Assembly (NCBI RefSeq): GCF_025772985.1
Contig: NZ_JAKMTB010000006.1
Location: 22,288 to 86,287, forward strand
Reading direction: 5' to 3'
DNA from: Campylobacter sp. CNRCH_2014_0184h
GTDB lineage: Bacteria > Campylobacterota > Campylobacteria > Campylobacterales > Campylobacteraceae
DNA length: 64,000 bases
The translations under genes were made by a program, and so were the position numbers. Positions 50,687-55,394 of the stretch are shown here, one piece after another. A model generated the notes under the pieces. That model saw only the letters and a list, made by a program, of their open reading frames with translations, had not been told where the DNA came from and did not search any database. Within the stretch, counting starts at the first letter, position 1. Every line of letters starts with the position of its first letter.

Positions 50687-50720
50687 ATTTTGGGTAAGAA
50701 TTATTTTTAAGGAGAAAAAT

Positions 50721-51059
50721 ATGTCAAACCTAGGAACTCAAATCTTTAACGCTAACTTAGAAAAACAAGGAACTTCAGTTTTAAATAGTAAGCATTTTAT
50801 GGAACTTTTAAATTATCTAGAAGTTGTAAATTCAAGTGAAGAAAAAGAACTAAACTATGCAAAACTTTCAAGTAAAGTAAGTGAAATTTTGGATGATGCT
50901 CATAATGAAAATGCAGTTTTAAATGCTAAAAATATAGAAGAATTACTAGTAATATTTAAAAACTTTAATCTTTCTCATGAAAATTTAAAACTTGATTGTG
51001 CAGCACAATTGCAAAATTTATTTCCAAATTTAGCAAAAAATAATTTTTTAGTAGGTTAA
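50721..51059 (+). CDS. hook-cluster protein homologous to the FliK N-terminal module
   Basis: 112 residues, helical, no signal peptide; corresponds by position to C. jejuni Cj0040. The start at 50721 follows AAGGAG; an upstream TTG frame extension would run through the promoter. Residues 18-112 align with FliK 84-176 from the next gene: [11 protein letters not shown] against [21 protein letters not shown] against NINELFNIAK, and [11 protein letters not shown] against AFPNLDKKGFF. Probably cotranscribed with fliK (3-bp gap). Inferred to bind the same partner as FliK in hook-length control or export. Confidence 0.85.
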
Positions 51060-51062
51060 TTA

Positions 51063-52706
51063 ATGTCAAATATCCAAGCTAGCGATGCTTTAAACTTACT
51101 AAGCATCGCTCCACAAAATGAAAATCCTAGCAAAGAAAGTGCTAATTCAAATAGTGATGGAGAAGAATTTTTAAATTCACTATTACAAGCTATAGATGAA
51201 AAAGATGGAAGTTTACCAAAAGACTTTAAAGCACCACAAAAAGAAAATAAAAACGAAAGCTTAAAAGAAACCATTGACGATAAAGTTCAATTAGATGAAA
51301 AGGATGCTTTAAAGCTTTTTGAAGGTGCAAATTTTATGCAAATTCTTTCTTTACTAGAAGTTTTACAAAGTGATAGCAAGGATATAAAATTAAACAAACT
51401 TGTCCAAGATAATACTGCTATTTTAGCTCTTGAAAAAAACCTACACAAGTTAAAAAATATAAAAAATATCAATGAGCTTTTTAATATAGCAAAAGAACTT
51501 GGATTAAATATAAAAAATATAAAATTTGAACAAATCAAAGATTTAAAAGAAGCTTTTCCAAATCTTGATAAAAAAGGTTTTTTTGAAAATGCAAAACAAA
51601 ACAATACTAATGTTTTTCAAGATTTAATCAATCAAAAAATCACCAAACTTTTAAAAGAAGAACCAAATACAAATAAAAATATAAAAAGCAAAGAAAACGA
51701 AGGCGTTTCTTTACTTTCTTCTGCTTTAAAAAACATAGAGCTTCCAAAAAAAGATGTAAAAGTAAAAGAAAATATTCAAAATATAGATTTCAAAGAAAAA
51801 TTTATAGAAAAAATTCAAGATAACAAAGAAACAAAAGACATAAAAAATATAAAAAATATTAATAAAAATGATAAATTAAATGATATAGAACTCATTAATC
51901 TAACTCAAAATTCAAACTTAAAAAAAGAAATTAAAGATAAAGAAAAAATAGATTTTAAAGAAATATTAAAAAATGAAAAATTAACTACCAGTGAAGATAG
52001 TTTTAGTAAAAAAATAAGTTCTGTTTTAGAAAATTCAAAGGACTTAAAAGCTGAATTAACAAATACAAAAAATACTCAAAATTTACAAAATCAAGATTTA
52101 AAAATTAATTTAGAGAATTTATTAAATACTCAAGAAAAACAATTAAAAACAGAAAAAAATACTCAAAACACAGATGTTTTTAACGATATTTTCAAAAACA
52201 CCACAGAACTTACAAAAGATGATAGTGATCATAATGAAGAAAATTTAAATTCTTACGTGAAAGAAATGAATAGAGTTTCTAATAATTTTGTGAAAAATCA
52301 AAATATTCCTATGAAAGAAACTTTCAATGATTTTGCTCAAGAATTTAAAGACAAACTAGAAAGTTATAAAGCACCTATAACTCGCTTTAGTATAACTTTA
52401 AATCCACACAACCTTGGAGAAGTAGAAGTTACCTTAGTCCAAAGAGGATCTAATCTAAACATCAGCTTTAATTCTAATCAAAATACTTTAAATCTTTTCA
52501 TACAACATCAAGCTGAGTTTAAAAACGCTCTTGTAAACATGGGCTTTACAAATTTAGAAATGAATTTTAATAATCAAGAAAGAAAAGAACAAAATAACCA
52601 ACAAAAACAAAAAAACAATAATAATAATAAAGAAGATAAGGTGAATTTCGAAAAAGAAATTCAAGAAAAACCAAGCTTAGAAATGGTTTTAGCAAAATAT
52701 TTTTAA
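51063..52706 (+). CDS. fliK: flagellar hook-length control protein FliK
   Basis: 547 residues, very rich in Asn and Lys. Residues 84-176 form a module shared with the upstream small protein; about 180-430 is low-complexity and probably extended (the ruler part). The C-terminal Flg_hook domain (about 440-510) has FSITLNPHNLGEVEVTL. An Asn/Gln/Lys tail follows. It measures the hook and switches export specificity at FlhB. A second sigma54 promoter starts at its stop codon. Confidence 0.9.
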   Translation: MSNIQASDALNLLSIAPQNENPSKESANSNSDGEEFLNSLLQAIDEKDGSLPKDFKAPQKENKNESLKETIDDKVQLDEKDALKLFEGANFMQILSLLEVLQSDSKDIKLNKLVQDNTAILALEKNLHKLKNIKNINELFNIAKELGLNIKNIKFEQIKDLKEAFPNLDKKGFFENAKQNNTNVFQDLINQKITKLLKEEPNTNKNIKSKENEGVSLLSSALKNIELPKKDVKVKENIQNIDFKEKFIEKIQDNKETKDIKNIKNINKNDKLNDIELINLTQNSNLKKEIKDKEKIDFKEILKNEKLTTSEDSFSKKISSVLENSKDLKAELTNTKNTQNLQNQDLKINLENLLNTQEKQLKTEKNTQNTDVFNDIFKNTTELTKDDSDHNEENLNSYVKEMNRVSNNFVKNQNIPMKETFNDFAQEFKDKLESYKAPITRFSITLNPHNLGEVEVTLVQRGSNLNISFNSNQNTLNLFIQHQAEFKNALVNMGFTNLEMNFNNQERKEQNNQQKQKNNNNNKEDKVNFEKEIQEKPSLEMVLAKYF

Positions 52707-52756: not shown

Positions 52757-53764
52757 ATGTCAAATATAAATACACAAACTCTTCAAGGTCCTTTAGCAAC
52801 ACTTAATACTAAAGATATGCCAAATGCAAAAGGAAATGCTAGAGCTGGAGAAGGCGATAGTGGGTTGATTTATAACCCTGGAGCAGAACTTGACAAGGAT
52901 GCATTTTTAAAGCTTCTTTTGATAGAACTTCAACACCAAGATCCAACCGATCCTATGGATACTGAAAAAATGCTTACTCAAACAGCACAACTTTCAGCAC
53001 TTGAAATGCAAGATAACACCAATAAAACCATGACTCAACTAGTAGATGCGATGGCAAAACTACAAAATTCTATTGCAGCAAGTACCGGTATGAGTGCATT
53101 AGCTGCAGTTGGAAAACTTGCAACAGTTAAAGATGATTATCTTGTGGTAGCAGATGATGATATACAATTTCAAATTAATATGTATTTACCAAAAGAACCA
53201 CAAAAAGGTAAAAAGACTGATATTGACACTGAAGGTTTTGAACTTAAGAAAAATGGTGAAGACAAACTAGACATTACAGGTAAGGTAGATAAAGAAATAG
53301 CAGGGCCTGGGGAAACTGTATATGTAAAATTAGTTGATGATAAAGGCCAAGAAGAAACTGTTAAAGCGGTAGTTGGTGAGGATCAAACCTTTAAAATTAT
53401 AGGACATACTCCAAGCGTTGATATCAAAACAGCTAAGATTGATTCAGCTTATAAATCAGATAGCGAACCTGTAACATTTACTATTTATAACGAAGCAGGT
53501 GATCCTGTAAGAACAATGAAAGTTAAAGATATGACTGCAGGTATGAAACAGATTGTTTGGGATAGAACGGATGATAGTGGAAATCCTGTGCCATCTGGTA
53601 AATACTATGTAAGAGCAAATTATATAGGCGAAGATGGAACAACAGTTAACTCAACTTATGGTGCTTATCCTATCACTGGTGTAAGATTTGAAGATGGCGA
53701 AGCTCTAGTTGGTATGGGCGGTAGCTGGGTTAAATGGGAAGACATTAAAGAAATTACAGGATAA
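52757..53764 (+). CDS. flgD: flagellar hook capping protein FlgD, with an extra domain
   Basis: 335 residues. The N-terminal export and FlgD signature region (LDKDAFLKLLLIELQHQDPTDPMDTEK, split here as DKDAFLKLL and QDPTDPMD) is at about 46-71. The Ig-like part has VRTMKVKDM and VWDRTDDSGNPVPSG (about 251-281). Between the halves, residues 154-236 form an added domain that is also present in FlgE (211-298). The length exceeds E. coli FlgD (about 230). It caps the growing hook. Confidence 0.93.
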   Translation: MSNINTQTLQGPLATLNTKDMPNAKGNARAGEGDSGLIYNPGAELDKDAFLKLLLIELQHQDPTDPMDTEKMLTQTAQLSALEMQDNTNKTMTQLVDAMAKLQNSIAASTGMSALAAVGKLATVKDDYLVVADDDIQFQINMYLPKEPQKGKKTDIDTEGFELKKNGEDKLDITGKVDKEIAGPGETVYVKLVDDKGQEETVKAVVGEDQTFKIIGHTPSVDIKTAKIDSAYKSDSEPVTFTIYNEAGDPVRTMKVKDMTAGMKQIVWDRTDDSGNPVPSGKYYVRANYIGEDGTTVNSTYGAYPITGVRFEDGEALVGMGGSWVKWEDIKEITG

Positions 53765-53768
53765 AATC

Positions 53769-55394
53769 ATGTTTACAGCATTTTACAATGGAGTAAATGG
53801 AGTAAAATCCCAAAGTTATGGTATAGACAATACTGCTCACAATATAAGCAATGTCAATACAGTTGGTTTTAAATACTCTGATGTAGCATTCAAAGATGTA
53901 TTTTACAGCACCGTTACAACCCAATCATACAACAAAGGTCAAACTGGTTATGGTAGTGTAGCAGGAGCTACAAATGATGTTTTTGAACAAGGGCCACTAG
54001 TTTCTACTGATAATGAATTTGATGTGGCTATTGCTGGAAAGGGCTTTTTTGGTGTAAGTAATGCCAATGGAGTTTATTATACTAGAAATGGCGCTTTTAA
54101 ACCTGATGCAAATGGATTTTTAGTAGATTCAAATGGTAATTATGTGCTTGGAACTATGAATCCATCATTAAAAGAAATTCAGCTAAGCGATAGGGTTTCT
54201 AATATGTTTGGTCAAGCTATGGGACAAAAAGTTACCACAGCTTGGAGTGGAACACCTGGAGAAAATTTCCAAATAGGTGGAGTTAATACCCAAGGGCCTA
54301 TTTCTGTGCCTAAAAATCTTTATTTACCACCTCAACCAACACAAAATATCACTTGGAGTGGAAATTTAGACACAAGCACCAAAACAGAAGCAGTGAACGT
54401 AGATGTAGATGCTTCTAAATTTGAATTTAGCAAAAATGAAGATGGTAGTGTAAAAATTTCAGGTAGTGTAAAAGATGAGCAAATTTTTGGTTTAAAGCCT
54501 GGTGATACTATATATTTTAAAATTACTGATGAAAAAGGTGCTAGTCAAACATTACAAGCTACTTTAGATGAGAATTTGGCTTTTAGTATTGACAATCAAA
54601 AACTAGATAAAGTAGATTTAGAAACAGCTAAGTTAGAATCATCTCATTTAAGTGTAGAAAAAGAAGTAGCTGATAGCACAGAACTTTCTGCAAAATTAAT
54701 TAATCCTGATGGTTCTACTAGTTGGGTTAAGGTTAAATTAGATAGAGTTTTACCGCAAAATGGCACAGATTTAGAGTACAAAGCCGTTGCTCAAGTATAT
54801 GATAATGATGGCAATAAAATAGGTGGAACCACCGAAGGTTTAATCACCTTCAATGAAGCTGGAGCTTTGGTATCTAGCACTCTAAACTCAGTTGATAATA
54901 ATGGAACAAAAGTCAATATAAACCTTGGTTCTTATTATGATCCAAATATACCAAATTCAGGTTATGATGGACTTCATGCTTTAAAAAATAAACAGCCTTC
55001 AGTACACACACAAACAGATGGCAAAGGTGAAGGGTTTTTAAATAATTATTCTATCAACACAGATGGTACCATCATCGCCACTTTTACCAATGGTGATCAA
55101 ATAGCTATGGCAAAACTTGCTTTGTTTAATTTTACCAATGAACAAGGTTTGGAAAAGCTAGGAGAGAATCTTTATGGACAAACAGGAAATAGCGGTAATC
55201 CAACCTTTTTGCTTGATGATAATGGAAATTTCAGCACAGCAACCTTTAAAGGCTCTTATTTAGAGCAATCAAATGTAGATTTATCCGTAGCATTTACAAA
55301 CTTAATCACTTTGCAAAAAGCTTATGATTCAAGTAGTAAAAGTATCACAACAGCTGATCAAATGATACAAAAAGCAATCAACATGAAACGCTAA
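53769..55394 (+). CDS. flgE: flagellar hook protein FlgE
   Basis: 541 residues from ATG 53769, four bases after flgD (an ORF extension upstream overlaps flgD and lacks an RBS). N-terminal flagellar rod-hook motif (residues 1-35, NTAHNISNVNTVGFK) and C-terminal helix (YLEQSNVDLSVAFTNLI, about 497-513) make the D0 core. Central surface domains include residues 211-298, homologous to the FlgD insert: SKFEFSKN against EGFELKKN, PGDTIYFKITDEKG against PGETVYVKLVDDKG, and VDLETAK against VDIKTAK. Confidence 0.95.
   Translation: MFTAFYNGVNGVKSQSYGIDNTAHNISNVNTVGFKYSDVAFKDVFYSTVTTQSYNKGQTGYGSVAGATNDVFEQGPLVSTDNEFDVAIAGKGFFGVSNANGVYYTRNGAFKPDANGFLVDSNGNYVLGTMNPSLKEIQLSDRVSNMFGQAMGQKVTTAWSGTPGENFQIGGVNTQGPISVPKNLYLPPQPTQNITWSGNLDTSTKTEAVNVDVDASKFEFSKNEDGSVKISGSVKDEQIFGLKPGDTIYFKITDEKGASQTLQATLDENLAFSIDNQKLDKVDLETAKLESSHLSVEKEVADSTELSAKLINPDGSTSWVKVKLDRVLPQNGTDLEYKAVAQVYDNDGNKIGGTTEGLITFNEAGALVSSTLNSVDNNGTKVNINLGSYYDPNIPNSGYDGLHALKNKQPSVHTQTDGKGEGFLNNYSINTDGTIIATFTNGDQIAMAKLALFNFTNEQGLEKLGENLYGQTGNSGNPTFLLDDNGNFSTATFKGSYLEQSNVDLSVAFTNLITLQKAYDSSSKSITTADQMIQKAINMKR

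Follow-up and report, generated by a model that had tools for sequence, protein, structure and literature searches.

A domain shared by the predicted hook-cap protein FlgD and the adjoining FlgE-type protein of the Campylobacter lari group, probably copied between neighbouring genes

The stretch of DNA analysed here, called the window, comprises 64,000 nucleotides of Campylobacter sp. CNRCH_2014_0184h (contig NZ_JAKMTB010000006.1, positions 22,288 to 86,287). On its + strand lie flgD (52757..53764), which encodes a predicted hook-cap protein of 335 residues, and, adjoining it, a gene for a FlgE-type protein of 541 residues (53769..55394). FlgD contains an inserted domain (residues 152-237; 53210..53467, + strand) that is homologous to a domain of the FlgE-type protein (residues 211-298; 54399..54662, + strand). 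We consider it very probable that the domain was copied from the neighbouring flgE-type gene into flgD, and the evidence is best read as a single such event in the stem lineage of the Campylobacter lari group. The window genome belongs to this group; the closest relatives of its FlgD are named C. lari, C. armoricus, C. peloridis, C. volucris, C. subantarcticus, and C. insulaenigrae. A preliminary description, made from the letters of the window, had claimed a common domain that arose by duplication or exchange between the two neighbours, and had proposed profile-profile comparison, structure prediction, and a survey of Campylobacter flgD and flgE as checks.

A BLASTP comparison of the two window proteins gives one long match, FlgD 141-234 with FlgE 183-295, in which 37 of 113 positions are identical and 54% are positive, at an expectation value (E) of 3e-14. 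A hidden Markov model (HMM) built from the FlgD inserts of 12 genomes matches the adjoining FlgE-type protein in each of them at 28-52 bits (E 7.5e-9 to 3.9e-16). It scores 2.6-27 bits in the other 24 same-genus FlgE, 21 of them at E 2.4e-8 to 0.013, so that 33 of 36 are matched at E<=0.013 in total. The FlgE of genomes G016, G028, and G034 reach E values of only 0.2 to 0.9, and their domain is visible in the FlgE alignment alone; in that alignment the domain aligns in all 36 same-genus proteins examined. Profile-profile comparison of the FlgD insert, one of the proposed checks, proved significant against both the 12 FlgE domains of the C. lari group (probability 98.3, E=1.4e-14) and 23 other Campylobacter FlgE domains (probability 96.6, E=5.6e-10). 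As an internal control, FlgD was compared with FlgE of its own locus; 13 of 54 loci give a match at E<=0.01, comprising the 12 insert carriers plus genome G051, an unrelated case described below. Queries with FlgE against its own genome at E<=1 find, besides genes of the FlgE family, the FlgD insert as the only other carrier. Chance or composition as the source of the similarity is ruled out by the BLASTP, HMM, own-locus, and profile-profile results. The claim of a common domain therefore stands, and both genes and both domains had been placed correctly in the preliminary description, except that the FlgD insert is two residues longer at its start and one at its end than given there. Outside the genus, the HMM was run against all 18 order-level loci, where only L068 falls under E=0.05 (E=0.0021); from these loci the FlgE domain alignment took L066-L068. 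One FlgE-type protein of 643 residues (L062, genome G034) has a domain region of 189 rather than 99 residues, which looks like two diverged tandem copies.

Both the FlgD insert and the FlgE domain are predicted to be immunoglobulin-like (Ig-like). In Foldseek searches with predicted models, both domains, taken alone, match best to an adhesin repeat, 6xi3, at the same 6xi3 residues, so that the proposed structure prediction favors a common fold. The two domain models were compared in this way, through their matches to third structures among the first 1000 Foldseek chains. The mean predicted local distance difference test (pLDDT) scores of the FlgD and FlgE models are 69.9 and 68.6, and the rest of both models is partly poor. 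Taken as separate pieces, neither the FlgD insert nor the FlgE domain matched a Pfam family above cut-off.

The proposed survey gave very different distributions for the two copies. While the FlgE domain is found throughout the 36 genus members aligned, a census of 49 genomes of the genus found FlgD in 48, with a match that runs unbroken across the insert in 16 and breaks there in 32. Twelve of the 16 carriers were judged from the alignment and four by full-length HMM matches; of the 32 non-carriers, 24 were judged from the alignment and eight by match ranges. The insert is a clean insertion of 86 residues between the YLP motif and the Ig-like petal domain, and the carriers are the C. lari group, in all 16 of its FlgD examined. 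The 24 insert-free rows of the alignment of 36 same-genus FlgD show a clean gap and no remnant of the insert. In a sample of the order (298 genomes drawn, 237 with a match), the match is unbroken in six genomes among the matches listed, all of this genus. A metagenomic sister lineage has a FlgD without the insert (P0021, 251 residues) and a FlgE with the domain (P0133, 58% identical), and the two appear to lie on one 9006-base contig. The same insert was considered for C. jejuni-like FlgD and rejected, because these proteins run through the site without it; the C. jejuni-named P0022 also lacks it. An apparent FlgD fusion in genome G332, an open frame of 846 residues, was likewise discarded, since a stop separates the frames of flgD (299) and flgE (546). 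One locus titled Campylobacter jejuni isolate_S4 (L090, NZ_NFOE01000039.1) encodes a C. lari-group FlgD, 94% identical and matched over the insert range, and its species label may be wrong.

Two trees of the domain were computed. The first left out L062, which has two domain copies, and L066 and L067, which have no matching domain in the aligned columns; the second further omitted the two longest branches, L068 and L060. In the second tree the FlgD inserts form one clade (support 100/100) and join the FlgE of the C. lari group at 99/94, and these together with P0133 are grouped at 100/100. The corresponding values for these last two groupings in the first tree are 89/86 and 98/100, with the bootstrap unsettled. 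A tree that makes the C. lari-group FlgE a clade of its own gives p values of the approximately unbiased test (p-AU) of 0.21 and 0.27 in the second and first tree, respectively; the inserts may lie either inside or beside that FlgE. The insert-free P0021 beside the domain-bearing P0133, together with the clean insertion in 16 of 48 FlgD, indicates the direction FlgE to FlgD. Duplication between neighbours, as originally suggested, is supported by homology, by the gradient of HMM scores (28-52 against 2.6-27 bits), by the tree, and by the linkage of flgD and flgE. A two-way exchange is not; the evidence indicates instead a one-way copy in one species group. One result weighs against this history: placing the inserts outside the C. 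lari-group FlgE and P0133 makes the tree 8.7-9.1 log units worse, yet this placement is not rejected (p-AU 0.075 and 0.077).

After the copying, the two domains evolved under constraint, yet they are the loosest parts measured. Over 66 pairs from 12 genomes, the ratio of nonsynonymous to synonymous differences per site (pN/pS) is 0.20 in the FlgD insert. The N-terminal core of FlgD has 0.03 and the C-terminal part 0.08, with the variable first part omitted; for FlgE, the values are 0.25 in the domain and 0.11-0.12 elsewhere. A value of 0.20 implies that the insert is not decaying. In the window, insert and FlgE domain share 58% DNA identity over aligned codons (140 of 240). Across the 12 genomes, their similarity score is 135.6 within genomes and 136.3 between genomes. 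Because the two are no more alike within than between genomes, there is no sign of matched change, nor, since the FlgD inserts also form one clade, of later gene conversion.

The donor-type gene is not that of the main hook protein. The preliminary description had taken the FlgE beside flgD for the building block of the hook, but the window protein scores 184 bits against TIGR02489, the model for the epsilonproteobacterial hook protein, well below the curated cut-off of 412.85. Another open reading frame (ORF) of the same genome (L093:1621-4002; G000:C4:127120-129501) reaches 871.8 bits, and it aligns over residues 2-794 with 5jxl, the solved hook protein of C. jejuni (5e-244). TIGR02489 finds a match above cut-off in 46 of 49 genus genomes and in none of 14 control genomes. 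The window protein does belong to the FlgE/F/G family TIGR03506 (237.1 bits over residues 4-521; cut-off 70.25). Its gene lies directly after flgD while the hook gene is elsewhere in the genome, as expected of the flgD-coupled FlgE paralogue (Cj0043 / HP0908 type), and we assign it to the Cj0043 type because of its place after flgD, its size, and its relatives named C. jejuni (P0147, 52% identical). Purified hook of C. jejuni is reported to consist of the second FlgE only, not of the Cj0043-type protein (PMC5069557), and in H. pylori HP0907 is flgD and HP0908 an flgE (PMC2864241). The literature examined, including passages of these two papers, gives no role for the flgD-coupled paralogue. The true hook protein was also considered as donor but is not supported, since the FlgD-insert HMM reports no match in the L093 ORF even with an E limit of 100.

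Linkage of the paralogue to flgD is tight. In 53 of 54 loci the FlgE-type gene starts -4 to +28 nucleotides from the flgD stop; in the remaining locus, L079, the first ATG of the FlgE frame is 217 nucleotides inside flgD. Tandem FlgE-type genes stand behind flgD in 11 of the 18 order-level loci from outside the genus (L066, L067, L068, L069, L070, L072, L073, L075, L077, L080, L082). In the four such tandem loci tested (L066, L068, L069, L075), the gene adjoining flgD either fails TIGR02489 or is missing from the matches at E<=1e-60; the second gene passes. Members of the C. lari group have a shorter main hook protein than C. jejuni (794 versus 851 residues in 5jxl), and the TIGR02489 scores of the 16 insert carriers, all 840-874 bits, lie under the 950-1217 bits of 23 other genus members.

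What the added domain might do in the cap can be approached from the published geometry. The Salmonella FlgD cap has five petals and measures about 90 A across, against 180 A for the hook; it is modelled over domains D0 and D1, and how the petals trap FlgE is called unclear by the authors (PMC8595650). Given these dimensions, the gap to D2/D3 is about what a further Ig-sized domain on each petal would span. We propose that an outer domain of flgE was copied once into flgD in the stem lineage of the C. lari group, and that the added Ig-sized domain would lengthen each petal of the hook cap. The lengthened petal would, by our arithmetic, reach about the radius of the outer D2/D3 ring, where a copy of the partner's outer domain could make contacts like those between two neighbouring subunits. 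As a joint account, one copying from the downstream FlgE-type gene together with petals extended to dock on the outer domains of the growing structure is our best guess, which we rate evenly between right and wrong. The docking role taken by itself we put forward only tentatively. Two observations tell against it: a tight interface is hard to square with the fast change of the insert and the absence of matched change, and the probable donor is a protein other than the main hook subunit.

Alternatively, the neighbour-copied domain could be a free surface decoration, shielding or varying an exposed surface, for example, without contact to the growing hook. In its own protein each copy is the least constrained part (pN/pS 0.20 and 0.25 against 0.03-0.12), there is no within-genome matching, and the outer domains of hook proteins are described as hyper-variable (PMC5069557). 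We nevertheless regard decoration as somewhat unlikely, since the insert is still constrained and has been kept in 16 of 16 C. lari-group FlgD examined. Moreover, the hook cap is generally understood to be a transient structure, on which decoration would be of little use.

Copying between the genes might itself be questioned if FlgD and FlgE had each taken related Ig-like domains from a common adhesin-type pool. The adhesin repeat as best domain-only match of both, the occurrence of Ig-like domains in other FlgE- and FlgD-type proteins of the order, and the tree alternative with p-AU 0.075 are all consistent with such independent uptake. However, both trees and the HMM scores place the inserts closest to the FlgE of the C. 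lari group, and own-genome queries at E<=1 find no carrier beyond the FlgE family other than the FlgD insert, which makes two separate acquisitions improbable. That an early Campylobacter ancestor had the domain in both proteins and all other lineages then lost it from FlgD is highly improbable, for although the same unrejected tree (p-AU 0.075) would fit, exact losses would be required in the lineages of the 32 other same-genus FlgD and of P0021, with no remnant in the 24 insert-free alignment rows.

The gene order is a fliK-type gene (51063..52706; Pfam Flg_hook, E=5.9e-13), flgD, and the FlgE-type gene, all on the + strand, and the last starts 4 nucleotides past the flgD stop. Its likely start is the ATG at 53769, where a mechanical ORF list uses an upstream TTG instead. 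Before the fliK-type gene, window positions 50718-51059 encode a protein of about 113 residues that matches no Pfam family above cut-off, and a frame of similar size precedes fliK in G332 as well. We predict from sequence that the window FlgD is the hook cap protein. It matches Pfam FlgD (PF03963, 70.6 bits, E=1.3e-19) and FlgD_ig (PF13860, 51.8 bits, E=8.1e-14) above their gathering scores (27 and 27), and it has relatives among solved FlgD structures. The FlgD Ig-like petal domain follows the insert at residues 238-289 (53468..53623, + strand), as delimited by alignment with insert-free FlgD; the FlgD_ig match covers 227-289. FLgD_tudor reaches 19.3 bits, under its cut-off of 26.9, in a match split by the insert and the Ig-like domain. 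The protein was not filed under the NCBIfam equivalog model for FlgD, NF009452 (289 positions), because its 243.5 bits, in two stretches, fall below the curated cut-off of 258.

Family f17 of the same order provides a second case of domain sharing. In genome G051 the FlgE-type protein adjoining flgD (L073:1635-2846) matches Pfam FlgD_ig (PF13860) at E=6.9e-18 over residues 201-272. All three f17 genomes retrieved (G051, L073; G069, L094; G084, L095) have a FlgD-type Ig domain in FlgE according to our own HMM, and PF13860 occurs in at least 35 of 1239 relatives (35 of 120 among the matches listed). In a quick tree from a short alignment, without bootstrap, 33 FlgE-borne Ig copies form one clade (Shimodaira-Hasegawa-like approximate likelihood-ratio test, SH-aLRT, 100), and their place among FlgD proteins is weakly supported (67 and less); of the 36 proteins P0241-P0276, the Ig HMM did not reach P0271-P0276, which are absent from that tree. 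The G051 FlgE is 25% identical to its own FlgD (E=2e-4) and up to 39% identical to the FlgD of other genomes (E=6e-10). FlgD_ig-like domains also occur outside flagella, and a source other than the FlgD of that lineage is possible for the f17 domain. A FlgD of 315 residues (L098, G272) seemingly has two FlgD-type Ig domains in tandem, at residues about 123-200 and 209-313. Set beside the C. lari group, the f17 proteins (L073, P0241-P0276) are alike in that an Ig-like domain type is common to flgD and the adjoining FlgE-type gene, but the sense is opposite, with a FlgD-type domain in FlgE, and the domain is another one. A broader reading would make the flgD-flgE' pair of Campylobacterota a site of repeated two-way transfer, an outer domain of FlgE' going to the cap in the C. 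lari group and a FlgD-type petal domain replacing the FlgE' outer domain in another family; the flgE' product would then be the cap's partner at one hook end, the two recognizing each other via like domains. We regard this reading as rather doubtful.

Compared with solved structures of Salmonella hook cap FlgD (7bhq, 7eha) and the H. pylori FlgD fragment (4zzk), the window FlgD has an extra predicted domain between the Tudor-like strand and the Ig-like domain; with 4zzk, only 138 residues of the window FlgD model in that range align. In hook FlgE of C. jejuni (5jxl/5az4) and Caulobacter (5ay6), D3 is inserted in D2, and the extra domain of the window FlgE is predicted at about the same place in D2. 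The D3 domains of C. jejuni and of Caulobacter have unlike folds (PMC5069557). The window protein differs from these FlgE in being the flgD-coupled paralogue, in its small predicted Ig-like domain, and in the copy of that domain that sits in the cap. A contact between additional sequence in C. jejuni FlgD and additional domains of FlgE has been offered as a speculation (PMC8595650). The functional idea is the same as ours, but C. jejuni-named P0022 and C. jejuni-like FlgD are without this insert, and the sections of that paper examined do not mention a domain common to FlgD and FlgE. The preliminary description knew of no earlier report of such sharing, and we found none in the literature searched, which was covered mostly by listings, with subscription journals largely outside. 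Variable outer domains of hook proteins are already known; we know of no copy of one in the cap.

The insert-bearing cap is a natural experiment, in which a removable module has its probable donor next door and is present in one species group and absent from close relatives. The role of the petals in trapping and placing FlgE, on which a cap with a borrowed FlgE-type outer domain bears, is described as unclear (PMC8595650). The finding also draws attention to the flgD-coupled FlgE paralogue, which is found beside flgD across the order. If the reverse case holds as well, flgD and flgE would offer one of the rare cases in which domains are traded between an assembly factor and an axial protein.
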